Source of the DNA: an uncultured Rhodospirillaceae bacterium
GTDB lineage: Bacteria; Pseudomonadota; Alphaproteobacteria; Rhodospirillales; Magnetospirillaceae
Length of the DNA: 36,011 bases
NCBI GenBank assembly: GCA_903941095.1
Contig: CAJANN010000154.1
Coordinates: forward strand, 1-36,011
Direction of reading: 5' to 3'
A program made the position numbers and the translations under genes. A model generated the notes under the pieces. That model did no database searches and was not told where the DNA came from. It saw only the letters and a program-made list of their open reading frames with translations. Shown here in pieces: positions 7,886 to 32,117 of this stretch (the first letter of the stretch is position 1; every line of letters begins with the position of its first letter).

Positions 7886-10399
7886 TCAGGCCCGACGCCG
7901 CTCGTCGAAATCGAGCCGCCGGCCGGCCCGCATCAGCGCCCCCATGTCGTCGGGCGGCAGCGGCCGCGAGAACAGGTAGCCCTGCATCTGGTCGCAGCCC
8001 AGGGCACGCAGGAATTCCAGGTGCTGGACATGCTCGACGCCTTCGGCCACCACCTTCATCTTCAGGGCCTTGGCCATCGCCACGATGGCGTCGACGATGG
8101 CGGCGTCGTTGGGGTCGGTGATGATGTCCATGACGAAGCTGCGGTCGATCTTCAGTTTCGAGATGGGGAAACGCTTGAGCACCGAAAGCGACGAATAGCC
8201 GGTGCCGAAATCGTCGATCGAGCAGTTGATGCCCATGTCCTTCAGCGTCTGCACCACGGCGATGGCGTTGTCGGCGTCGCGCATCGCCGAGCTTTCGGTC
8301 AGTTCCACTTCCAGGTAGCGCGGATCCAGGCCGGATTGGGCCAAAGACTGCTCCAGGGTCTGGATCAGGCGCCGGGCGGACTGGAACTGCCGGCCCGAGA
8401 CGTTGACCGCCACCGGAATCGGCGGCAGCCCCAGATCCTGCCACGCCTTGTTCTGACGGGTGCAGCGGTGCAGCATGATCTCGCAGATGCCGTCGATCAG
8501 GCCGGATTCTTCGGCCACCGGAATGAACTCGGCCGGCGACACCATGCCCAGGTCGGGGCTTTGCCAGCGGACCAGCGCCTCCATCCCCACCACCAGGCCG
8601 CTGCCCAGGTCCACCTGCGGCTGGAAATAAGGCACGAACTCGCCCTGCTCGATGGCCCGCCGCAGCCGGCTTTGCAGCGACAGCGTCTTGGCCGCGCCGG
8701 AATTCATCTCGCGGGTGAAGAATTGCAGGATGGCCGGGCCTTGCCCCTTGGCCCGCTGCAGGGCCGCCTCGGCATCGCGGATCAGGTCCTCGGCCTCTTC
8801 ACCGTCGCCGGGAAACAGGGCGACGCCGGCCGATACCGAAATGTCGAATTCCTCGCCCTGCACGGACACCGAGGTCTGCGCCAGCCGATACAGCTGCTCG
8901 ATGGCCTCGGTCAGTTCGTGCCCGGACTGGCGGCCGCACAGCAGCACCAGGAAACGGTCGCCCGAGGCCCTGGCCATGACGTCGTCGCGTCCCAGGCCGG
9001 ATTGCAGCAGGTCGGCGGCCGCCACCAGGACCTGATCGCCGATGGAATGCCCCATCGTGGCGTTGATGATGCCGAAACGGTCGATGCCCAGGCTGAGCAC
9101 GGCCAGCGGGCCGGCGCCGGCCCTGGCCCGCTCGCGGGCGGCGGCGAAGCGGTCCAGGAACGCGGCCCGGTTGGGCAGACGGGTCAGCGGATCGTAATAG
9201 GCCAGGAAGGACAGGCGCTGTTCGGCCATCATCCGGTCGGTGACGTCGATCATGACCCCGTCCCACACCACCGCCCCGTCGTCGCGCCGGGTCGGACGGG
9301 ACTGGCCGCGCAGCCAGCGGCGGCGGCCATCGCCGCCCAGCACCGCCAGTTCCTCCTCGAAGGGCTCCATCAGCCGGGCCGACCGGGCCAGACCCGATTG
9401 GAAACGCTGACGCTCCTCCAGGCTCATCACCCGCAGGAAGACCTCGGGATCGACCAGAAGCTCTTCCGGCTCGACCCCCAGGAAGGCGCGGCACCCCTCG
9501 CTGACATAGGTGTATTCGACGCGGCCGCCGGGATGCAGGACGCGCTGGAACACCATGCCGGGCATGTTGCCGGCGATGGCGCGCAGCCGCTGCTCGGTTT
9601 CGCGCAAGGCCGCCTCGGTCGCCTTGCGGGCGGTGACGTCGCGGCCGATGCAGACGAACAGCCGTGCTCCGTCCAGCCGCACCTCGGACGCCGACAGTTC
9701 CAGCGGAAAAGTGCTGCCGTCGCGGCGCAGGCCGACCAGTTCGCGCGGCCCGCCGTCCACCAGCCCGCATTCGCCCTCGTGCGACAGCAGCGGCCGGCAC
9801 TGCCCCCCGGCGATCAGGTCCTGGAACTGCCGGCCGCCCAGGGCGGGGCCATCCCAGCCGAACAGCCGTTCGCAGGCGGTGTTGACGCTGTCGATGCGCC
9901 CGTCCTCGTCCAGCACCAGGATGGCGTCGGCGGCATGCTCCATCAGCATGTCCAGGCGGAATTCGGCCAGCCGGAAGTCGGTGATGTCGATCAGGACGCC
10001 GTCCCACACCACCGCCCCATCGGGCATGCGCCGTGCTTTCGACGCCCCGCGCAGCCAGCGGACCTGCCCGGCGGCGGTGACGACGCGAAACTCCTCGACG
10101 GACAGGCCAAGACGGTCGGCCGAGCGGCGGACGGCCGCCAGGTGGTCGTCGCGGTCGGCCCAGTGGATAAGGTTCAGACAGCCCTGGCGGTTGACGCTCA
10201 TGCCATCGGGACCGCTGCCCAGCAACGCCAGGATGGTGTCCGAAAAATACGGATAGGAAACGGTCCCGTCGACCGCCATCCGGCGCTGGAACGAAAAGCC
10301 GGGCAGGCTGGCGGACAGCCCGTCGAGACGGGCCGCCAACTCGGCTGCACCCAATGCGGCAAACGCTTCCACCCCATCTTCGCCGCTGATCACGCCCAT
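7886..10399 (-). CDS. PAS-PAS-PAS-GGDEF(degenerate)-EAL protein, probable c-di-GMP phosphodiesterase
   Basis: An 837-residue soluble signalling protein without membrane segments. Three PAS-like modules lie at about 28-145, 146-258 and 268-392; the first and third end alike (GAVVWDGVLIDITD and GAVVWDGVMIDVTD), suggesting internal duplication. The GGDEF domain (about 395-560; YYDPLTRLPNRAAF) has ASGDRF at the signature position, so cyclase activity is probably lost. The EAL domain (about 573-820) retains MEALVRW (E607), VAVNVSGRQF, VELTES, DDFGTGYSSLS, KIDRSFV and VAEGVEH, so hydrolysis of c-di-GMP is expected. The ATG at 10399 is preceded by GGGAG only one base away; GTG at 10393 is better spaced and is an alternative start. 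It is co-directional with the J-domain gene 4 bases downstream. Confidence 0.9.
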   Translation of the reverse strand: MGVISGEDGVEAFAALGAAELAARLDGLSASLPGFSFQRRMAVDGTVSYPYFSDTILALLGSGPDGMSVNRQGCLNLIHWADRDDHLAAVRRSADRLGLSVEEFRVVTAAGQVRWLRGASKARRMPDGAVVWDGVLIDITDFRLAEFRLDMLMEHAADAILVLDEDGRIDSVNTACERLFGWDGPALGGRQFQDLIAGGQCRPLLSHEGECGLVDGGPRELVGLRRDGSTFPLELSASEVRLDGARLFVCIGRDVTARKATEAALRETEQRLRAIAGNMPGMVFQRVLHPGGRVEYTYVSEGCRAFLGVEPEELLVDPEVFLRVMSLEERQRFQSGLARSARLMEPFEEELAVLGGDGRRRWLRGQSRPTRRDDGAVVWDGVMIDVTDRMMAEQRLSFLAYYDPLTRLPNRAAFLDRFAAARERARAGAGPLAVLSLGIDRFGIINATMGHSIGDQVLVAAADLLQSGLGRDDVMARASGDRFLVLLCGRQSGHELTEAIEQLYRLAQTSVSVQGEEFDISVSAGVALFPGDGEEAEDLIRDAEAALQRAKGQGPAILQFFTREMNSGAAKTLSLQSRLRRAIEQGEFVPYFQPQVDLGSGLVVGMEALVRWQSPDLGMVSPAEFIPVAEESGLIDGICEIMLHRCTRQNKAWQDLGLPPIPVAVNVSGRQFQSARRLIQTLEQSLAQSGLDPRYLEVELTESSAMRDADNAIAVVQTLKDMGINCSIDDFGTGYSSLSVLKRFPISKLKIDRSFVMDIITDPNDAAIVDAIVAMAKALKMKVVAEGVEHVQHLEFLRALGCDQMQGYLFSRPLPPDDMGALMRAGRRLDFDERRRA

Positions 10400-22334: not shown

Positions 22335-23168
22335 TCAGCGGGCCGGAGCCGGCGCTCCGGGGCGAACCACCGCGTAGATGCCGCGCTGTTCCGGCACCGG
22401 CTTGAACTTGTCCGAAATTCCCAGGACAGTTTCGGCGCCGCCCAGATACAGCAACCCGTCGTCGGGCATGATCTTGGCGACGTTGTCCAGCACCCGCGTC
22501 TTGGTCGGCTGATCGAAATAGATCAGCACATTGCGGCAGAACACCACGTCGAACTGCCCCAGCGTCTTCAAATCGTGCAGCAGGTTGTATTCGCGGAACT
22601 GGACCATGCCGCGGATCGACGAATCGATCTGCCACATCTCGTTGTTCTTTTTGAAGTACTTGACCAGAAGCTGGATCGGCAGCCCCCGCTGCACCTCGAA
22701 CTGCGAATACAGGCCGGCCTTGGCCTTTTCCAGCATCTCGGTGGAAATATCGGTTCCGACGATCTCGATCTTCCAGCCGGCCAGCTTGGCGCCTTCTTCC
22801 TTCAGGATCATCGCCAGGGAATAGGCTTCCTGGCCGGATGAACTGGCCGCCGACCAGATCCGGATGGTCTTCTTGGCGGCGCGGTTGGTCAGCAGCCGGG
22901 GCAGGACCAGCGCCTTGAACTGATCGAACGGCTTGATGTCGCGAAAGAAGAACGACTCGTTGGTCGTCATCGCTTCGGTGACTTCGCGCAGCAGATCCTC
23001 GCCGGACGTCTTGAGCGACCCCAGCAGATCGTCCAGGCCTTTCATCCCGCGCTTGCGCGCCACCGGAGTCAGCCGCGATTCGAGCAGATAGGCCTTGTCG
23101 CGGGAAATCACCAGACCCGAGCGGTCTTTCAGTAATTTGGCGACGAAGTCAAAGTCTTCGGGACGCAT
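22335..23168 (-). CDS. cheR: Chemotaxis protein methyltransferase CheR
   Basis: Methylates glutamates on chemoreceptors with S-adenosylmethionine. The 277-residue protein has the N-terminal helical CheR domain (MRPEDFDFVAKLLKDRSGL), TEAMTTNESFFFRDIKPFDQ (conserved TTNExxFFR), IWSAASSSGQEAYSLAM (SAM-site loop), VGTDISTEMLEKAK and VVFCRNVLIYFD. There is no TPR or pentapeptide-binding module. The start is 4 bases after the cheB stop. It is the last gene of the operon. Confidence 0.95.
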   Translation of the reverse strand: MRPEDFDFVAKLLKDRSGLVISRDKAYLLESRLTPVARKRGMKGLDDLLGSLKTSGEDLLREVTEAMTTNESFFFRDIKPFDQFKALVLPRLLTNRAAKKTIRIWSAASSSGQEAYSLAMILKEEGAKLAGWKIEIVGTDISTEMLEKAKAGLYSQFEVQRGLPIQLLVKYFKKNNEMWQIDSSIRGMVQFREYNLLHDLKTLGQFDVVFCRNVLIYFDQPTKTRVLDNVAKIMPDDGLLYLGGAETVLGISDKFKPVPEQRGIYAVVRPGAPAPAR

Positions 23169-23172
23169 GCCG

Positions 23173-24321
23173 TCAACGCCTCGCAGCCAGTTTCATCATC
23201 CACGGAGCAATATCGCTCAGCGGCAGGATCGCAGAACAGATGCCGGCCTGGGCCGCGGCCCCCGGCATGCCCCAGACGACGCTGGTGGCCTCATCCTGAG
23301 CGACGACGGTGCCGCCGTTCTGGATGATCACCTGGCCGCCCCTGGACCCGTCGGCCCCCATTCCGGTCAGGATGGCGACCAGGACCCGCTTGCCGTAGGC
23401 CGCCGCCAGACTGCGCAGCATGGGGTCGACGGCAGGGCGGCAGAAATTTTCGGGCGCATCCTTGTTCAGGCGGATCACCTTGTCGGCGCCGCGGCTTTCC
23501 ACCACCATGTGGAAGTCGCCGGGGGCGATATAGACGCGCCCCCCCTTGACCACTTCGCCATCCTGGCCCTCGCGGGCGTCCCAGCCGGAAATCCGGCTGA
23601 TATGCTCGGCCAGGATGGTGGTGAAGGTCGCCGGCATGTGCTGGGTGATCAGAATCGGCTGCCGGACCGTCCCCGCCCGCATGGTGCCCAGCAGGTTGAA
23701 CAGGGCCTGCGGCCCGCCGGTCGAACTGCCGATGGCGATGACGTCCGGCGGTTCCGGAGTATGGGTCCGCAGAACCGGCGCCGAGGCCGGGTGCAACAGC
23801 GAACTGCGCGGCGGCGCCGAGGCCGGGCGAGCCGAGGCGGCGGCGGCGCTCCGCACCTTGCGATTGGGGTCGCGGCGACGGGCATGCCCCAGGGCACGCA
23901 CCTTGTTCAGCAGTTCGGACTTGAAATCCTGCCCCCCGGCCAGATCGCGGGTGGCGGTCGGCTTGGGGATATAGTCGGCAGCCCCCATCTCCAGTGCCCG
24001 CATGCTGACACCCGCCCCCTTCAGGGTCAGGGTCGATTGCATGACCACCCGGACGGCGGGATCGATCTGCAGCAGCTTCGGCAGCGCGGTCATGCCGTCC
24101 ATCACCGGCATCTCGATATCCAGCAAGATGACGTCCACGTCCTGACGTTCCAGGGTGGACAGGGCCATCTGGCCGTTGCTGACCGAGGCGACGACCGCAA
24201 TGCCCGGGTCCTCTTCCAGAATCCGCGTGACCAGACCGCGCACCACGGCGGAATCGTCCACCAGCATGACCCGGATCCGGTCGGCAGGAGGGATGGCGGT
24301 TGGGGATTGCTCAGCGGCCAT
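23173..24321 (-). CDS. cheB: Protein-glutamate methylesterase / response regulator CheB
   Basis: Demethylates and deamidates chemoreceptors when phosphorylated by CheA. The 382-residue protein has a receiver domain (VMLVDDSAVVRGLV; VDVILLDIEMPVMDG with phospho-acceptor Asp68), a Ser/Ala/Pro linker, and the methylesterase domain with the Ser-His-Asp triad in AIGSSTGGPQALFN, ILITQHMPATFT and LTGMGADGSRGG. The ATG at 24321, preceded by AAGGA about 10 nt away, is preferred to an in-frame TTG at 24339. It follows cheY by 32 bases. Confidence 0.95.
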   Translation of the reverse strand: MAAEQSPTAIPPADRIRVMLVDDSAVVRGLVTRILEEDPGIAVVASVSNGQMALSTLERQDVDVILLDIEMPVMDGMTALPKLLQIDPAVRVVMQSTLTLKGAGVSMRALEMGAADYIPKPTATRDLAGGQDFKSELLNKVRALGHARRRDPNRKVRSAAAASARPASAPPRSSLLHPASAPVLRTHTPEPPDVIAIGSSTGGPQALFNLLGTMRAGTVRQPILITQHMPATFTTILAEHISRISGWDAREGQDGEVVKGGRVYIAPGDFHMVVESRGADKVIRLNKDAPENFCRPAVDPMLRSLAAAYGKRVLVAILTGMGADGSRGGQVIIQNGGTVVAQDEATSVVWGMPGAAAQAGICSAILPLSDIAPWMMKLAARR

Positions 24322-24353
24322 AGACAGCACGTCCTTCAAAAAGGAGCCGGGAT

Positions 24354-24719
24354 TTACAGAAGGCCCACCTGAGAAAACTTGGCCTGCAGAATCTCGCTGT
24401 CGAACGGCTTCATGATGTACTCATTGGCGCCGGCCATGATCGCTTCCTGGATATGCTCGATATCGTTTTCGGTGGTGCAGAACACCACCACGGGCTTCTC
24501 GCCGCCCGGCAGCCGCCGCAATTCCCGCAGAAACTCGATTCCGTTCATGACCGGCATGTTCCAGTCCAGCAGAACGGCGTCGGGCATGGACCCCTTGCAA
24601 TAATCCAGCGCCTGCTGGCCATCCTCCGCCTCGGCGGTGGAAAAGGTCAGCTCTTGCAGGATTTTTTTGGCCACCATGCGGATGACCTTGGAATCGTCAA
24701 CGATCAGACAGGACTTCAT
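24354..24719 (-). CDS. cheY: Chemotaxis response regulator CheY
   Basis: Single receiver domain, 121 residues, that carries the CheA signal to the flagellar switch or other output. Key residues are D8/D9 (SCLIVDDSKVIRMVAKK), phospho-acceptor D52 (AVLLDWNMPVMNG), T82/T83 (VVFCTTENDIE) and K104 (EYIMKPFDSE). A GGAGGCAAAAAGGGC leader precedes the ATG. The gap to cheW is 62 bases. Close in length and motifs to alphaproteobacterial CheY of this operon type. Confidence 0.95.
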   Translation of the reverse strand: MKSCLIVDDSKVIRMVAKKILQELTFSTAEAEDGQQALDYCKGSMPDAVLLDWNMPVMNGIEFLRELRRLPGGEKPVVVFCTTENDIEHIQEAIMAGANEYIMKPFDSEILQAKFSQVGLL

Positions 24720-24781: not shown

Positions 24782-25267
24782 CTATTCGTTCTTATTGAAA
24801 TCCAAAAGCTTGGCGACGTCCAGCACCACAAGCAGCTTGTCTTCCAATCGATAAATTCCCGCCGAGAATTCCCGCCACATGGGGTCGAGAGTCGGCGGGT
24901 TGCGTTCGAACTTGGCCGCCGGCAGGGTCAGGACCTCGCCGACCTGATCGACCATCAGCGAATAAAGCTCGCCGTTCTGGTCGACGACCACGCTCATGCC
25001 CTTGTTGTCCTCGGCGGCATTGCGCAGCCCCAGGCGCAGGCGGACGTCCACCGCGGTGACGATGCGGCCGCGCAGGTTGAGCGAACCGGCCACCTCACGC
25101 GGGGCCAGGGGAATGCGGGTGATCTTCTGCGGCCCCAGAACATCCTGGACGGTCAGCACCTGAATGCCGAACATCTGTCCGTCGATGAACATGGTGACGT
25201 AATCCTGGGTCTCCGGCGCCGCCAGTTCGGTGCCGGGGCGCTTCGAGGCGGGAACGATCTGGTTCAC
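24782..25267 (-). CDS. cheW: Chemotaxis coupling protein CheW
   Basis: Adaptor joining chemoreceptors to CheA. The 161-residue protein has a short extension (MNQIVPASKRPGTELAAPE), then the CheW fold: DYVTMFIDGQMFGIQVLTVQ, ITRIPLAPREVAGSLNLRGR (receptor/CheA contact), IVTAVDVRLRLGL, GELYSLMVDQVGEVL and LVVLDVAKLLDF. It begins 58 bases after the cheA stop. Confidence 0.95.
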   Translation of the reverse strand: MNQIVPASKRPGTELAAPETQDYVTMFIDGQMFGIQVLTVQDVLGPQKITRIPLAPREVAGSLNLRGRIVTAVDVRLRLGLRNAAEDNKGMSVVVDQNGELYSLMVDQVGEVLTLPAAKFERNPPTLDPMWREFSAGIYRLEDKLLVVLDVAKLLDFNKNE

Positions 25268-25325
25268 TTCGTGGCCCCCCTAATCTTGAGCAGATCCGAC
25301 ACGGCAGCGTGGTTGCGAAGGGTGA

Positions 25326-28070
25326 TCATGCGGCACCTTTGAGCGCGGCGAGGGTCGAAGCGATGGTCTGCAGCAGGGAATCCCGGTCGAACTTGGCCAC
25401 GTAATCGTTGAAGCCGACTTGGCGTCCCCGCTCGAAATCCTTTTCGGTGGCGTGCGACGACAGGGCGATCATCGGCAGCATCTGCCACCGGCCTTCCGAA
25501 CGCACCGCCGTGGCGAATTCGAAGCCGCTCATCCCCGGCATCTCGATATCGCTGATGATCAGGTCGAAATCCTGCCCCTGTTCACGCAGGGCCAAAGCCC
25601 GGTCGGCCCCCTCGACGGCGGTCACCTCATAGCCGCCCACCGACAAAAGCGGCGTCAGCAGATTGCGGAAGAACGGGCTGTCGTCCACCAGCAGGATCCG
25701 CAGCGCCGCATGATCGTCGGTGCCGTATTCCAGATCGGCGCGGCCGAACCAGTCGCCGAAGGCCTGCGGCAGATAATAGCCGGCGTCGATGATGGTGGTC
25801 GCCTTGCCGGCGATGACCGCGGTACCGATGACGCCGGGATTGTTGGCCGACAGCTCGACCTTCAGGCGGTCCTCGACGATGTCGACGATTTCCTCGACCA
25901 CCAGACCCATCGTGTGGTCGCGGTCCGAGAACACCAGAACCGGCTGGCGCCCCTCGGCGGCGAACTGGTTGCTGCCGTCGATGGAAACCAGCGGCATGAG
26001 ATGGCCGCGATACTGGACCATCGGCTTGCCGTGGCTGTATTCGACATCCTTGACGTCGATCTCCTCCAGGCGGGCCACCAGGGCCAGGGGCACCGCCTTA
26101 AGGTCCTCGCCGCCGGCGCGGAACACCAGCAGGCTGGTCTTGGAATCGCCGTGCAGGTCGCGGACCACGGTGCTTTCGGTGGTCTGGCCACCGCCCAGCA
26201 TGCCGGATTCCCCGGTCGCCCCGGCGATGCCGTTGGGGTCCAGGATCATGATCACCGAACCGTCGCCCAGGATGGTGTTGCCCGAGAACATCGAGATGTG
26301 GCGCAGGATCGGCGCCACCGGCTTGACCACGATTTCTTCGGTGTCGAACACCCGGTCGACGATGATGCCGAAGGTGTAGGTGCCGACCTGGGTGACGACG
26401 ATGAAGGTTTCCTGATCCTCGCCGTTGTTCAGGCGCAGCAGCTTCTTCAGGGACACCAGCGGCAGCAGGCGGTCGCGCAGGCGCAGGACCGGCGCGTTGT
26501 TGATCATCTCGATGCCGTGCTCGGAATTGTTGGTGACGCGCACCAGTTCCAGCACGCTGATCTGCGGGATGGCGAAACGCTCGCTGGCGCATTCGACGAT
26601 CAGCGCCGAAACGATGGCCAGGGTCAGCGGAATCTTGATGACGAAGGTCGAGCCCCGGCCCGGCTGGCTTTTCAGTTCGACGGTGCCGCCGATCTTTTCG
26701 ATGTTGGTGCGGACCACGTCCATGCCGACGCCGCGCCCGGACACGCTGGTGACCTTTTCGGCGGTCGAGAAGCCGGCCTTGAAGATGAACTGATAGATCT
26801 GCTGCGGGTTCATCGCCTCAAGCTCGCTTTCGCTGGCGAGCCCGTTGGCGATGGCCTTCTGCTTGATGCGGTCGAGGTTGAGCCCGCGCCCGTCGTCGGA
26901 AATCTCGATGATGATGTGCCCGCCTTCGTGGAAGGCGTTCAGCACCACCTTGCCGATTTCCGGCTTGCCGGCGCGCTTGCGCTCCTCCGGGCCTTCCAGT
27001 CCGTGGTCGGCGGAATTGCGGACCATGTGGGTCAGCGGATCCTTGATCAGCTCCAGAACCTGACGGTCCAGCTCGGTCTCGGCCCCCAGCATCTGCAGGT
27101 CGATCTTCTTGTTCATTTCGATCGACAGATCGCGGACGATGCGCGGCAGCTTGGCCCAGGCGTTGCCGATCGGCTGCATCCGGGTCTTCATCACCCCTTC
27201 CTGCAGGTCGGTGGTGATGTGGGACAGGCGCTGCAGCGGCGCGGTGAATTCGGAATCATCGCGGCCGCGGACCATCTGGAGCAGCTGGTTGCGGGTCAGC
27301 ACCAGTTCGGACACCAGGGTCATCAGGTTTTCCAGCAATTCCACGTTGACGCGGATCGTCTGGGCGGCGACGGCCGATTCCTTGGGTTCGCCGACGGCGA
27401 CCGGATGCTCGGCCTGCTTCGCCAGAGCCGGGGGCGACGCGGTCGGAGCCGGGACGCTGGCCCTGACCTCGGGGACCGCTTCCGGCTCGGCGGCAGGAGT
27501 CTGGGCCTGGGCCTGGGCCTGGGCAGCGGCTTCCTTGGCGCGCTCCTTGGCCATTTCCACCAGCATGTCGGTATCGGATGCCGCCTTCTTGCCGGCGGCA
27601 TAGGCGGCCTCGACCTCGGCCAGCAGGTCGGCGGCGACCGGGAAAGGCGGGGCCTCTTCGGCGGCGGCAGCGGCCGGGGCGGCAACCGTGGGGCTGCGCC
27701 CTTCGGCCATGTCGTTCAGCTTGGCGATCAGGTCGCCGTCTTCGCCTTCGGGCTCGCACTCGTTCTGTTCCAGATGGCCCAGGATCAGCTTGATGCGGTC
27801 GATGGCCTGCAGGATCAGGGTGACGGCGGTCGGCGTCACCTCAAGCTCGCCGTCGCGGAACTTGCCCAGCACGTTTTCCGACGCGTGGGCGACATGTTCC
27901 AGCCGCGGCAGACCCAGGAAGCCGCAGGTCCCCTTGATGGTATGCACCAGCCGGAAGATGTTCTGCAGAATGCCCGGCTCGGGGTTCTGCTCCAGCTTGA
28001 CCAATTCGACGTCAAGCACCGACAGGCTTTCCGAAGTTTCAGTCAAAAATTCGCTGAGGAGATCATCCAT
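25326..28070 (-). CDS. cheA: Hybrid chemotaxis histidine kinase CheA with second CheW-like domain and receiver
   Basis: Receptor-controlled kinase, 914 residues. Domains in order: HPt with phospho-acceptor His43 (IFRLVHTIKGTCGFLG); a Pro/Ala/Glu-rich linker (about 130-245) without an evident P2 domain; dimerisation helices (LLENLMTLVSELVLTRNQLL); HATPase (HMVRNSADHGLEGPEER, ISDDGRGLNLDRI, GRGVGMDVVRTNIEKIGG); CheW domain; a second CheW-like domain (TSLLVFRAGGEDLKAVPLAL; QPVLVFSDRDHTMGLVVEEI); and a C-terminal receiver (RILLVDDSPFFRNLL, LIISDIEMPGMSGFEF, YVAKFD). The ATG at 28070, with GGAG 6 nt upstream, is preferred to GTG 28088. The receiver may act as a phosphate sink or internal regulator. 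chpT ends 149 bases upstream. Confidence 0.95.
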   Translation of the reverse strand: MDDLLSEFLTETSESLSVLDVELVKLEQNPEPGILQNIFRLVHTIKGTCGFLGLPRLEHVAHASENVLGKFRDGELEVTPTAVTLILQAIDRIKLILGHLEQNECEPEGEDGDLIAKLNDMAEGRSPTVAAPAAAAAEEAPPFPVAADLLAEVEAAYAAGKKAASDTDMLVEMAKERAKEAAAQAQAQAQTPAAEPEAVPEVRASVPAPTASPPALAKQAEHPVAVGEPKESAVAAQTIRVNVELLENLMTLVSELVLTRNQLLQMVRGRDDSEFTAPLQRLSHITTDLQEGVMKTRMQPIGNAWAKLPRIVRDLSIEMNKKIDLQMLGAETELDRQVLELIKDPLTHMVRNSADHGLEGPEERKRAGKPEIGKVVLNAFHEGGHIIIEISDDGRGLNLDRIKQKAIANGLASESELEAMNPQQIYQFIFKAGFSTAEKVTSVSGRGVGMDVVRTNIEKIGGTVELKSQPGRGSTFVIKIPLTLAIVSALIVECASERFAIPQISVLELVRVTNNSEHGIEMINNAPVLRLRDRLLPLVSLKKLLRLNNGEDQETFIVVTQVGTYTFGIIVDRVFDTEEIVVKPVAPILRHISMFSGNTILGDGSVIMILDPNGIAGATGESGMLGGGQTTESTVVRDLHGDSKTSLLVFRAGGEDLKAVPLALVARLEEIDVKDVEYSHGKPMVQYRGHLMPLVSIDGSNQFAAEGRQPVLVFSDRDHTMGLVVEEIVDIVEDRLKVELSANNPGVIGTAVIAGKATTIIDAGYYLPQAFGDWFGRADLEYGTDDHAALRILLVDDSPFFRNLLTPLLSVGGYEVTAVEGADRALALREQGQDFDLIISDIEMPGMSGFEFATAVRSEGRWQMLPMIALSSHATEKDFERGRQVGFNDYVAKFDRDSLLQTIASTLAALKGAA

Positions 28071-28219
28071 CTTCCGCTCCAGCTCCACGCCTTCGAACCC
28101 TTCGTCCCTGCAGGTGGAACCACCCCTTCGGCCCCAGCCCTTACGGACAGCATTTCGACTAATAACACGGTGGCCGCAGGTTTAGAAGGACCCTCGCCAT
28201 CGAAAACATTCGACTTTGT

Positions 28220-28837
28220 TTATTTTTGCGGCGCAGCAAGAAACGCCAGGCCGCCGGACCGCACCTCTGTGCGCAACCCGCCCCCCGTCCTGTGCGCAAG
28301 AGTCCGGGCCAGATAGGCCTGGGCCTCCCGCGGGGAACCCGGGGCGGCGCCCTGTTCCAGCACGGCGGCGACGTCGCCGGACAAGGCCGCCGGCTCGCCG
28401 TATGCCTCGACCCGGGGCAGGCCGTCCTCGACGGCGACCACGATGCGGCCGCCGCGCGGCAGAGCATCCTTGGCCAGCACGATCAGGTTGAGCATCAGCC
28501 GGGCGGCATCGCCGCCCAGGCCCGCCGGGCCGGCCCGCCAGTCAAGTTCGACCCGCAGCCCAGACGACGCCAGCGACGACAGGTAGCCGTCGACCTGCTC
28601 GCGCAGCGCCGCGATGGCCACCGTTCCTGAAGCGGCCGGCCCCAAAGCGGCGCGGAAGAATTTCAGCCGGGCCGACCCGGCTCCGGCGCTGGCCGACACC
28701 AGGGCCAGCGTCTCGGCATCGACACCGTCCCCCATGTCGGCGATCAGTTCGGCCCCGGCTGCGGCGGCCCCGACCGGCCCCGACATGTCGTGGCACAGCC
28801 GCGCGCACAGCAGTTCCGCCAACGTCACTGCGTCCAT
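28220..28837 (-). CDS. chpT: ChpT-like histidine phosphotransferase
   Basis: A 205-residue protein matching ChpT, a dimeric HisKA/HATPase-like phosphotransferase that in Caulobacter relays phosphate from CckA to CtrA and CpdR. The diagnostic N-terminal helix is LAELLCARLCHDMSGPVGAA with phospho-acceptor His16, followed by AAAGAELIADMG, the second helix ASAGAGSARLKFFRAALG, and a degenerate ATPase-like domain (DAARLMLNLIVLAKDALPRG, GGRIVVAVEDG). The start is preceded by AGGGATAGGGA and lies 3 bases after the asnB stop, so both are probably on one transcript that may continue into cheA. The partner kinase and regulator are not in the window. Confidence 0.85.
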   Translation of the reverse strand: MDAVTLAELLCARLCHDMSGPVGAAAAGAELIADMGDGVDAETLALVSASAGAGSARLKFFRAALGPAASGTVAIAALREQVDGYLSSLASSGLRVELDWRAGPAGLGGDAARLMLNLIVLAKDALPRGGRIVVAVEDGLPRVEAYGEPAALSGDVAAVLEQGAAPGSPREAQAYLARTLAHRTGGGLRTEVRSGGLAFLAAPQK

Positions 28838-28840
28838 TCC

Positions 28841-30760
28841 CTATCCCTGCCCCTCGAACCATGCTTGAAACATCAAGGCGTGCCACAGTTGGGTCTGCCA
28901 GTTCTTGGCGCCGCCGCGATGGTCGCGCCAGCAGGCCCCGATCAGGCCGGCATCCAGCAATCCCTGCCGGCGCAGCCGGTCCTCGTTCAGCAGATCGCCG
29001 GCCCAATCCCGCAACTGGCCGTTCAGCCAACGCCCGATCGGAACCTCGAACCCCATCTTCGGGCGGTCGACCAGAGCCCTCGGCACATGGCGGTACAGGA
29101 CCTCGCGCAGCACCGCCTTGCCGGTGTCGCCGGCGATCTTCAGGTCGGTGGGCAAGCTCCAGGCGAACTCGACCACGGCATGGTCCAGGAACGGCAGGCG
29201 CGCTTCCAGGGAACAGGCCATCGTCGCCCGGTCGGTCTTGACGCACAGATCGTCGGGCAGATAGGTCCGGGCATCCATGACCATGACCGCCAGGGCCGGG
29301 TCGTCCGTTTCCGGCAGCCCCGTTCCGGAAAAGGCGGTCGGCGCCGGCCGCGCCCCCAGCACCGGCGACGGCATGCCGCGCCAGCGGGCATAATGCTGTC
29401 CGTGCAGTTCCCCCAAAGACCCTGCGCGCAGGGTCTCGAACGCCTTCTTCATGCGAAAGCCGGGATAGGACCGCCGCCGCCGCCCGACCAGGGCGCCCAG
29501 CCGGGCCGCGGCGTTGGGCACCGAGGCCGGCAGCAGGTCCAGCCCCGCCGCCAGCCGGCGCAGCCACGGCGGCACGCCGTCCAGGCGCCGCCAGTCCCGC
29601 GGCAGCGACCTGTAGATGCCGTAGCCGCCGAACAGTTCGTCGGCCCCGTCGCCCGACAGCGCCACGGTGACGTCGCGCCGGGTCGCCCGGGCCAGCAGGC
29701 AGGTCGGCAACTGCGCCGGGTCGGCGAAGGGCTCGTCCCAGATGGTCGGCAGGTCGGGCACCAGGGCCAGGGCGTCGTCGTCGGTGATCGGCACCTCGGT
29801 ATGGCGGGTGCCCAGATAGTCGGCCACCGCCCGGGCATGGGGGCTTTCGTCGTAGCCCGGCTGGTCGAAGCCGATGGTGAAGGTATGGATCGCCTGGCCG
29901 GACATCTGCTGCATGATGGCCGCCATCAGCGAGCTGTCGATGCCGCCGGACAGGAACACCCCCACCGGCACGTCCGCCTGCATCCGCAGCGCCACCGAGG
30001 ACCGCAGCAACTGGTCCAGCCGTTCGCCGGCGGCGGCGGCCCCGCCGGTGAAGGTTCCGGCCACCGCCCTGGCGCGGTCCGGGGCCGACCAGTAGCTCCG
30101 CACCGAGAGAGCGCCGCCGCCCGTCACCGTCAGGATGGTCCCCGGCATCAGCTTGCGCGCCGCCGCATAGATGGTGTGGGGGGCGGCGATCCAGCCCAGT
30201 TGCATGAACAGGGCCAAAGCCTGGCGGTCGATGGTCCGGTCGAACGACGGATGGACCGCCAGCGCCTTCAGTTCCGACCCGAAGGTCAGGACGCCGCCGG
30301 CCTGGGCGTAATAAAGCGGCTTTTCGCCGATGCGGTCGCGGGCCAGATGCAGGGTGCGCTCGGCCCGGTCCCACAGGGCGATGGCGAACATGCCGTCGCA
30401 GCGGGTCAGGGCCTGCTCGATCCCCCAGCGGCTGACGGCTTCCAGCAAGACCTCGGTGTCGGAATGGCCGCGCCAGCCGGCCGGCTGCAGCCGGTCGCGC
30501 AATTCGGCATGGTTGTAGATCTCGCCGTTGAAGGCGATCACCCAGCGGCCATCCCCCGAGACCATCGGCTGGTGCCCCTGCGGCGACAGGTCGAGAATGG
30601 CCAGACGGCGGAATCCCAGGGCGAACCCGGCGGCATCGTCGACCCAGGCGCCCTTGTCGTCGGGGCCGCGGTGCACCAGCGTTCCGGCCATCGCCGCCAC
30701 GACGGACGCCCGGTCGGGCGTTTGGGCACTCAGGTCAAGAAAACCGGCCAGTCCGCACAT
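28841..30760 (-). CDS. asnB: Asparagine synthase (glutamine-hydrolysing)
   Basis: Makes asparagine, or amidates another carboxyl substrate, from glutamine and ATP. The 639-residue protein starts MCGLAGFLDLSA; Cys2 becomes the N-terminal nucleophile of the glutaminase domain, which continues with HRGPDDKGAW, FNGEIYNHAELRDRL and DGMFAIALWD. The synthase domain has the PP-loop VGVFLSGGIDSSLMAAI, DEPFADPAQLPTCLLA and VALSGDGADELFGGYG. GGGGGAG precedes the ATG. A longer start at 30814 would bury Cys2 and is rejected. Length and GYGIYR fit the AsnB family often found in polysaccharide or modification clusters, so the acceptor need not be aspartate. chpT follows 3 bases later. Confidence 0.9.
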   Translation of the reverse strand: MCGLAGFLDLSAQTPDRASVVAAMAGTLVHRGPDDKGAWVDDAAGFALGFRRLAILDLSPQGHQPMVSGDGRWVIAFNGEIYNHAELRDRLQPAGWRGHSDTEVLLEAVSRWGIEQALTRCDGMFAIALWDRAERTLHLARDRIGEKPLYYAQAGGVLTFGSELKALAVHPSFDRTIDRQALALFMQLGWIAAPHTIYAAARKLMPGTILTVTGGGALSVRSYWSAPDRARAVAGTFTGGAAAAGERLDQLLRSSVALRMQADVPVGVFLSGGIDSSLMAAIMQQMSGQAIHTFTIGFDQPGYDESPHARAVADYLGTRHTEVPITDDDALALVPDLPTIWDEPFADPAQLPTCLLARATRRDVTVALSGDGADELFGGYGIYRSLPRDWRRLDGVPPWLRRLAAGLDLLPASVPNAAARLGALVGRRRRSYPGFRMKKAFETLRAGSLGELHGQHYARWRGMPSPVLGARPAPTAFSGTGLPETDDPALAVMVMDARTYLPDDLCVKTDRATMACSLEARLPFLDHAVVEFAWSLPTDLKIAGDTGKAVLREVLYRHVPRALVDRPKMGFEVPIGRWLNGQLRDWAGDLLNEDRLRRQGLLDAGLIGACWRDHRGGAKNWQTQLWHALMFQAWFEGQG

Positions 30761-30926: not shown

Positions 30927-32117
30927 ATGCCCCCTTCGGGCCGGTCCGGCCCACTGGGATGGATGATGCCCTCGCCCGCCGTTTCGCATGAATTCGCCGA
31001 TTGCACGGCCCTGGTCGTCGACGACACGCCGGCCAACCGCAATCTGGTGGCCTTCTTCCTGAAGGCGATGGGCGTCGGCAGGATCGAGACGGCCGCCGAT
31101 GGCCTGGACGCCCTGGAACGGACGGCCGCCATCCGCCCCGACATCATCGTCCTGGACGTCATGATGCCGCGCATGGACGGCTTCGAGTTCCTGCAGCGCC
31201 TGCGCGCCACCCCCGCCTTCACCGGCATTCCGGTTCTGGTCGCCACCGCCCTGGACCGTCCGAAGGACATGGCAATGGCCTTCGATTGCGGGGCATCCGA
31301 CTATATCCGCAAACCGATCGACCGGCGCGAGATGGTCGCCCGCATCGGCGTTCACCTGCGCAACCGTCAGCTGGTCCGCCGCCTGACCGCCTATCACGAC
31401 CGGGTGCGGCAGGATTTGCGCGCGGCCACCGCCATGCAGGCCGCGCTGCTTCCCTCGGAAGAGCAGATGGCGCACCTGCACCGCCGCTACGGCGTCGCCC
31501 TGGCCGCCGCCATCCATCCCTCGACCGAGGTCAGCGGCGACCTGTGGGGCTGGCTGCCCCTCGACGCCGACAGGTTCGCCATCTGGCTGGCCGATTTCTC
31601 CGGACACGGGGTGGCCGCGGCCATCAACACCTTCCGCCTGCACGTCATTCTGGACAGCGGCCCCAGCAGCGACCCGGCGGCCACGCTGTCGCGCCTGAAC
31701 GCCACCCTGGAATCGGTGCTGCCGCGCGGCCAGTTCGCCACCATGCTGTATGTCGTCTGCGATCCCGGCGCCGGAACCCTGGTCTTCAGTTCGGCCGGCG
31801 CCCCCGCCCCGGTGGTGCGCCGGAGCGGCGAAGCGGCCGAACTGCACCCTGTCTCGTCGCTGCCGCTGGGGATCCGCGCCGCGACGGCCTATCACAACAC
31901 CACACTGGCCTTTCCCAAGGGCAGCGCACTGCTGCTCTACAGCGACGGCCTCAGCGAGGCGCTGGACCGCGAAGGCCGCAGCCTGGGGGAAGACGGCGTC
32001 CTGGCCCTGAGCGAACGGATCAGCGCCCCCGATGGCCTGGATGCGGCCATCGACGGCCTGAAACAGGCCGGCTACCTGTTCGGCGACGATCTTTCGGCGG
32101 TATGGGTCGCCAGCTGA
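30927..32117 (+). CDS. Receiver-PP2C (RsbU/SpoIIE-type) serine phosphatase
   Basis: A 396-residue soluble response regulator. An N-terminal receiver (about 25-145) has ALVVDDTPANRNLVAFFL, DIIVLDVMMPRMDGFEFLQR (phospho-acceptor Asp) and YIRKPIDRRE. A short helix (RQDLRAATAMQAALLPSEEQ) leads into a PP2C-like domain with STEVSGDLWGW, LADFSGHGVAAAINTF, LLLYSDGLSEALD and the final DDLSAVWV, carrying the metal-binding aspartates. Such proteins dephosphorylate anti-sigma antagonists, but no STAS or HATPase partner is present here. The start is uncertain: ATG 30927 has AGGG at 4 nt, ATG 30966 is an alternative, and a TTG lies at 30900. It is divergent from asnB across about 165 bases. Confidence 0.85.
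   Translation: MPPSGRSGPLGWMMPSPAVSHEFADCTALVVDDTPANRNLVAFFLKAMGVGRIETAADGLDALERTAAIRPDIIVLDVMMPRMDGFEFLQRLRATPAFTGIPVLVATALDRPKDMAMAFDCGASDYIRKPIDRREMVARIGVHLRNRQLVRRLTAYHDRVRQDLRAATAMQAALLPSEEQMAHLHRRYGVALAAAIHPSTEVSGDLWGWLPLDADRFAIWLADFSGHGVAAAINTFRLHVILDSGPSSDPAATLSRLNATLESVLPRGQFATMLYVVCDPGAGTLVFSSAGAPAPVVRRSGEAAELHPVSSLPLGIRAATAYHNTTLAFPKGSALLLYSDGLSEALDREGRSLGEDGVLALSERISAPDGLDAAIDGLKQAGYLFGDDLSAVWVAS

Follow-up and report, generated by a model that had tools for sequence, protein, structure and literature searches.

One question raised by a 36,011-nucleotide (nt) stretch of DNA from an uncultured Rhodospirillaceae bacterium (contig CAJANN010000154.1 of assembly GCA_903941095.1) is why chpT, the gene for the histidine phosphotransferase of the CckA-ChpT-CtrA relay, lies immediately upstream of a chemotaxis operon. 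The window, as the whole stretch is called here, is one entire contig of a draft assembly of 3.57 Mb in 370 contigs, and on its minus strand an asnB-like gene is followed after 3 nt by chpT, and chpT after 149 nt by cheA, cheW, cheY, cheB and cheR, all co-directional. Gene order, spacings and common direction agree with the original prediction, which was made from the sequence alone and went on to suggest shared expression of the two phosphorelays, receipt of phosphate by ChpT within the Che system, and an acceptor other than free aspartate for the asparagine synthase. Very probably, the locus is one genus's version of an ancient arrangement in which chpT and cheAWYBR are followed by a convergent ctrA, the genes being neighbours through a shared motile programme and not through exchange of phosphate between CheA and ChpT.

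The first line of evidence comes from the order to which the window belongs. Among 150 genomes of this GTDB-type order, the window's own included, chpT was detected in 137, and 80 loci were picked from these matches by similarity rank and contig room, with 57 left out. Of the 80 loci, 63 have a co-directional cheA after chpT, at gaps of 103-798 nt and in 18 of the 19 families sampled, and the CheA alignment extends to the C-terminal receiver in 62 of these 63 (in L047 it stops at a contig end; L and G numbers denote loci and genomes). A downstream ctrA in the opposite orientation accompanies chpT in 47 of the 80; as the fetched stretches spanned only about 8 kb, so that G133 was missed, 47 is a minimum. 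G133 belongs to the window's family and has chpT, cheA and a convergent ctrA on one contig, with about 8 kb from chpT to ctrA; a second family member, G022, has the end of cheA, cheWYBR and a convergent ctrA. Loss of chpT from G022 was considered and not concluded, because its contig begins inside cheA. At least 3 of the 17 loci lacking cheA (G018, G136 and G009) likewise run into contig ends.

A sample of 153 genomes from the class gave a similar picture, with chpT in 100, ctrA in 108 and this kind of CheA in 63, at expectation values (E) of at most 1e-8, 1e-60 and 1e-90, respectively; the CheA counts are lower bounds, given the cut-off and the five candidates scored per genome. When linkage is defined as a co-directional cheA no more than 6 kb downstream of chpT, a limit that excludes G161, cheA is beside chpT in 45 of the 100 chpT-bearing genomes, spanning 38 families. 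On the same contig and within 15 kb of chpT, ctrA was found in 49, on the opposite strand in 48 and downstream in 47 of these 48; both cheA and ctrA are near chpT in 29. Among the best 80 of 580 named loci by similarity, 43 have chpT followed by cheA and 17 have a nearby ctrA, downstream and oppositely oriented. The full chpT-cheA-ctrA series is seen in Thalassospira profundimaris (L128), Azospirillum canadense (L185), metagenome-assembled genomes (MAGs) of Emcibacter (L160, L163) and a Rickettsiales MAG (L183), and many Sphingomonas loci have chpT-cheA with no ctrA nearby. The synteny survey that the original prediction had called for thus returns a widespread adjacency, apparently an old inherited arrangement and not one peculiar to the window's genome.

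An ancestral chpT-cheAWYBR-ctrA order, with ctrA convergent and the order repeatedly lost, is likely, because some cheA-less loci keep che-like remnants between chpT and ctrA. L031 has a cheY-like gene and cheR between chpT and ctrA, L089, L092 and L098 have a cheY-like gene there, and L039 has, at about 9181-9321, a 47-residue piece of the cheR C-terminus that is likely a fossil of a lost che operon. Together these pieces look like stages of che loss. Several observations count against such a history. The cheY-like genes of L089, L092 and L098 match at 57-63% identity and may be other receivers, and neither cheA nor ctrA is near chpT in 35 of the 100 chpT-bearing class genomes, nor in 33 of the best 80 of 580 named loci, several of which reach contig ends. 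On the ChpT tree, the linked or unlinked state takes 12 changes for 17 unlinked rows, and 200 shuffles of the states gave a mean of 15.5 changes with 3 as low as 12; as this clustering of unlinked rows is only slight, repeated loss, with which it is compatible, is an assumption and regain is also possible. Were the order merely coincidental and kept without selection, a large share of unlinked genomes would be in keeping with it, and in 55 of the 100 chpT-bearing class genomes no cheA was indeed found beside it. By a rough reckoning that involved no formal test, however, random placement among thousands of genes would give far fewer cases than a same-strand cheA neighbour in 38 families and a downstream, oppositely oriented ctrA in 47 of the 100, and coincidence is extremely unlikely.

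By sequence and predicted fold, the window's ChpT is a genuine phosphotransferase of the CtrA pathway, as the original prediction had supposed. It scores 82.8 bits with PF10090 (HPTransfase) against a curated cut-off of 22.9, and all 37 members of a ChpT alignment (A2) match the same model at E of at most 0.001. Solved ChpT chains are matched by the single sequence at 1.9e-19 (4qpj) and 1.1e-11 (4fmt), and by a 26-row profile at 3e-53 and 3.9e-42. The CHD motif that holds His16 is invariant in both alignments (A1, 26 rows; A2, 37 rows) and aligns with the CHD of solved ChpT. An AlphaFold2 model, with a predicted local distance difference test score (pLDDT) of 96, has the helical hairpin and degenerate kinase-like domain expected of the family, and its closest PDB structures are 4qpk, 4qpj, 4fmt and 4fpp, at template modelling scores of about 0.8. 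The protein falls short of the NCBIfam ChpT equivalogs, at 101.7 and 95.1 bits against 240 and 225, which tells against the assignment; the two models bear the names of Brucella/Rhizobium and Caulobacter types, and all three relatives scanned miss them as well, so it is the equivalog label that is limited and family membership is unaffected. This is the single ChpT match in the window's genome at E of at most 0.001. The rest of the relay is present in the same genome (G000): CtrA is encoded on another contig (G000:C99; NF045991, 409.2 bits against a cut-off of 350), and G000:C105 holds a CckA fragment, cut by the contig end, whose top matches are two CckA models, at scores (541 and 427) that stay below the full-length cut-off of 1000 bits and speak to that extent against CckA. 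ChpT evolves faster than its che neighbour: other members of the genus share 50-59% identity with the window's ChpT, and 78-90% over the cheA portion present in the 12 other genus loci.

Another reason for the adjacency would be that ChpT takes part in chemotactic signalling itself, with phosphate passing from the CheA receiver through ChpT to CtrA, or being drained from CheA by ChpT, so that tactic signals set CtrA. The age and spread of the chpT-cheA adjacency fit such a scheme, as do the CheA receiver, which keeps its catalytic residues and is reached by nearly all of the linked alignments, and the presence of chpT in 61 of the 63 class genomes with this CheA. Co-occurrence was compared for the two partners, in genomes that are not independent of one another. 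For chpT and ctrA, 97 genomes have both, 3 chpT only, 11 ctrA only and 42 neither (odds ratio 123), and for chpT and CheA, 61 have both, 39 chpT only, 2 CheA only and 51 neither (odds ratio 40). Although both odds ratios are high, the presence of ChpT matches that of CtrA better than that of this CheA; 39 of the 100 chpT genomes have no match to this CheA, and the usual donor, CckA, is present. Co-occurrence of chpT and cheA is nevertheless above chance, which goes against a purely separate role and makes a functional tie to Che possible.

The two genomes with this CheA only are G177 and G262. In both, the CheA receiver has its catalytic residues intact, chpT was absent from the genome search, and the fetched che regions (L234 and L235) contain no ChpT-like frame; the receiver therefore appears not to need ChpT there. 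The sole ctrA homologue in G177 is a distant one (about 50%), and G262 has no ctrA match. This pattern argues against an obligate CheA-ChpT step, one confined to this genus being possible, and no published CheA-ChpT phosphotransfer was found in the literature searched, which was covered in part. Receipt of phosphate by ChpT in the Che system, as first proposed, is thus not borne out by genomes in which chpT accompanies ctrA (97 of 100) more than CheA (61 of 100), and a working role in the chemotaxis relay is unlikely. An ancestral coupling, in which a receiver-bearing CheA would exchange phosphate with ChpT and tactic or aerotactic input would tune CtrA, flagellar expression and cell type, has an outside chance of being correct.

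The second neighbour of chpT, the asnB-like gene, has a different history, and the distribution of the gene indicates that it is a newcomer of one genus at this position. All 13 genomes of the window's genus have it next to chpT, in the order asnB-chpT-cheA (in L243 the best asnB alignment stops about 0.7 kb before chpT). The 76 loci fetched from other genera showed no asnB beside chpT; 5 of these 76 have less than 1.4 kb upstream of chpT, where a whole asnB would not be visible. A record titled Stygiobacter sp. (L125) has the same genus-specific order and is probably misnamed, because its contig end matches that of a same-genus genome (G302). Gene calls for 5 of the 13 genomes place asnB 3 nt from chpT in the window and its nearest relative (G094), and 60, 42 and 101 nt away in G083, G140 and G071. 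All 6 sister-genus genomes carry an orthologue with 67-70% identity at a site apart from chpT; in L205 it adjoins a TPR-methyltransferase gene according to a domain scan, and in the five other loci a gene of similar length, compared by length only, stands beside it. The genes upstream of asnB vary even within the window's genus, being HlyD and major facilitator superfamily genes, a kinase gene or, in the window, a divergent gene for a receiver-SpoIIE phosphatase. The nearest relative (L051) has a histidine kinase gene that separates the homologue of this receiver-phosphatase gene from asnB.

The protein itself belongs to the asparagine synthase family (TIGR01536, 475.5 bits against a cut-off of 267.1) and has Cys2 and an SGGIDSS motif, both of which have catalytic roles in that family. 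Its nearest solved chain is the hydroxyamidotransferase 7ylz (3e-59), ahead of the E. coli-type AsnB 1ct9 (2.8e-38). The window's genome has 11 asnB matches at E of at most 1e-60, this gene included, and asparaginyl-tRNA synthetase (TIGR00457) was not found in 4 of 4 genomes (G000, G094, G140 and G102) by a search that gave a signal in 12 of 14 control genomes, 7 of them over the cut-off. From these three features it is possible that the enzyme amidates an acceptor other than free aspartate, and to that extent the original prediction stands; nothing ties the enzyme to ChpT or Che, and the sister-genus orthologue away from chpT speaks against a link. A stronger proposal would make asnB, chpT and che one functional operon, in which the amidotransferase modifies a co-expressed relay or motility partner. 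The 3-nt spacing, the co-direction of the genes with no clear terminator among them, the constancy of the order within the genus and an enzyme that need not supply asparagine would all be accommodated; the lack of asnB beside chpT outside the genus, the sister-genus position, the changing upstream genes and a conserved promoter-like element before cheA would not, and a single functional operon is very unlikely.

That element emerged from alignment of the chpT-cheA gap as a 35-nt sequence of two blocks at fixed spacing, GGGTYCTTCTAAA-N11-CGTGNTATTAG. With at most 2 mismatches it is found in 11 of 12 loci of the window's family, 120-123 nt before cheA in ten and 142 nt before it in one, and all 13 genus genomes have it when up to 4 mismatches are allowed, five genomes being common to the two sets. 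The cheA translation begins MDDL, and the alignment keeps this start region across the family. No copy occurred in 100 shuffles of the window, and each of the three genomes searched at up to 3 mismatches (G000, G140 and G102) has one copy; a shared regulon motif was rejected because of this single occurrence. Part of the element, TGNTATTAG, resembles the extended -10 box when set against the extended -10 consensus. Of all 64 gaps compared, 18 contain CGTGNTA (shuffle mean 3.1), 11 of these 18 being gaps of the window's family; RTGNTAT is present in 19 (mean 7.1), TGNTA in 46 (35.6) and TGNTATNNT in 2 (3.9), and by these counts a general extended -10 motif is not shown outside the window's family. 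Three results run counter to the reading favoured here: the element is missing from family member G133, a plain scan of 24900-28600 gave no sigma-70 consensus promoter, and there is no Caulobacter-type CtrA box near these genes within the window. One such box with 1 mismatch lies at position 1658, and 23 of 100 shuffles have one too. No known structured RNA reached gathering scores. Terminator-like sites number 4 in 24900-28600, against a shuffle mean of 2.6; the chpT-cheA gap contains a single one, which is weak and falls within the conserved element.

Expression of the locus can be read from these features in part. Because they are 3 nt apart, asnB and chpT probably form one transcript, and since no convincing terminator precedes cheA, read-through from asnB-chpT is possible. 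The conserved element suggests that the che operon probably has its own promoter. The proposal of shared expression is therefore upheld for asnB and chpT and qualified for che: a strong promoter or terminator in 28071-28219 had been named as the sign of separate regulation, and a conserved promoter-like element does lie there, unaccompanied by a convincing terminator.

Features of the chpT-che locus and its neighbours in the window
Feature	Coordinates	Strand	Description
asnB-like	28841..30760	-	Glutamine-dependent amidotransferase; 639 aa; PF00733 383.9 bits, GATase_6/7
chpT	28220..28837	-	Histidine phosphotransferase of the CckA-ChpT-CtrA relay; 205 aa, His16; PF10090
Promoter-like conserved element	28159..28193	-	Upstream of cheA; GGGTYCTTCTAAA-N11-CGTGNTATTAG; putative function
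cheA	25326..28070	-	Hybrid CheA; Hpt, dimerisation, HATPase, two CheW-like stretches, C-terminal receiver with DD/D/S/K
cheW	24782..25267	-	PF01584 102.9 bits
cheY	24354..24719	-	PF00072 105.5 bits
cheB	23173..24339	-	NF001965 402 bits against a cut-off of 293
cheR	22335..23168	-	PF01739 209.2 bits
Receiver + SpoIIE/PP2C phosphatase	30963..32117	+	Divergent neighbour of asnB; domain scan

In the inherited-locus model favoured here, the single ChpT would pass phosphate from CckA to CtrA, the presumed old role of which is control of motility. As parts of the same motile programme, chpT and the main che operon would then have stayed neighbours by joint inheritance. In the window's genus ctrA is elsewhere, and the asnB-like gene has moved in ahead of chpT, with which it probably shares a transcript; transcription of che would probably begin for the most part at a conserved promoter of its own within the 149 nt before cheA, some read-through from asnB-chpT being possible. 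An ancestral role for CtrA in motility has reportedly been proposed by Greene et al., and the preserved chpT-che-ctrA order fits the view that this was CtrA's first job and makes it testable, through co-regulation of the locus and through whether Che signalling reaches CtrA. In its accessible parts, PMC3692519 describes CtrA as non-essential in M. magneticum and cites a paper on the ancestral motility role. The detection of chpT in 137 of 150 genomes differs from published surveys of Rhodospirillales, in which it is often missing, the samples being different. According to the accessible parts of PMC8116508, chpT, cckA and divL are present in 27-36% of Rhodospirillales genomes, and most of the genes examined have no conserved location; those of PMC2877005 describe relay members missing to varying degree in its Rhodospirillales cluster, with Magnetospirillum placed under another cluster, and some organisms that have cckA but yielded no chpT orthologue. 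As chpT is beside cheA in most of the 80 order-level loci, position can help to locate divergent copies. No report of chpT lying beside cheA was found in the literature searched, where subscription papers were partly covered, and one may be in print.

Among known systems, the window's che genes are closest to the F5 type, which is marked by cheAWYBR and by a CheA that combines a receiver with two CheW-like domains; the window has both this order and such a CheA. The CheA proteins of Magnetospirillum cheOp1 and Azospirillum Che1 also carry a receiver, and the gene order there is A-W-Y-B-R. The likeness lies in Che gene content and in a CheA with two CheW-like (P5) domains, and the difference in chpT and asnB directly upstream in the window, whose orthology to cheOp1 is putative. 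The covered parts of two papers on these operons describe two P5 domains in CheA1 of Azospirillum Che1 (PMC6759762), and the naming of M. gryphiswaldense cheOp1 as F5 and the loss of aerotaxis upon its deletion (PMC12442639); in those parts chpT is unmentioned. The asnB-like enzyme shares with the AsnB family, including hydroxyamidotransferase 7ylz, an N-terminal Cys2 glutaminase and an Asn_synthase domain, and differs in being one of 11 matches in its genome, with an acceptor that may be other than free aspartate. Compared with the CckA-ChpT-CtrA phosphorelay of Caulobacter, Brucella and others, the window has a ChpT that is alike in sequence and predicted fold, and a CckA-like hybrid kinase and CtrA in the same genome, and its predicted relay role is held by a protein that has diverged below the NCBIfam ChpT cut-offs and whose gene sits at a chemotaxis operon.

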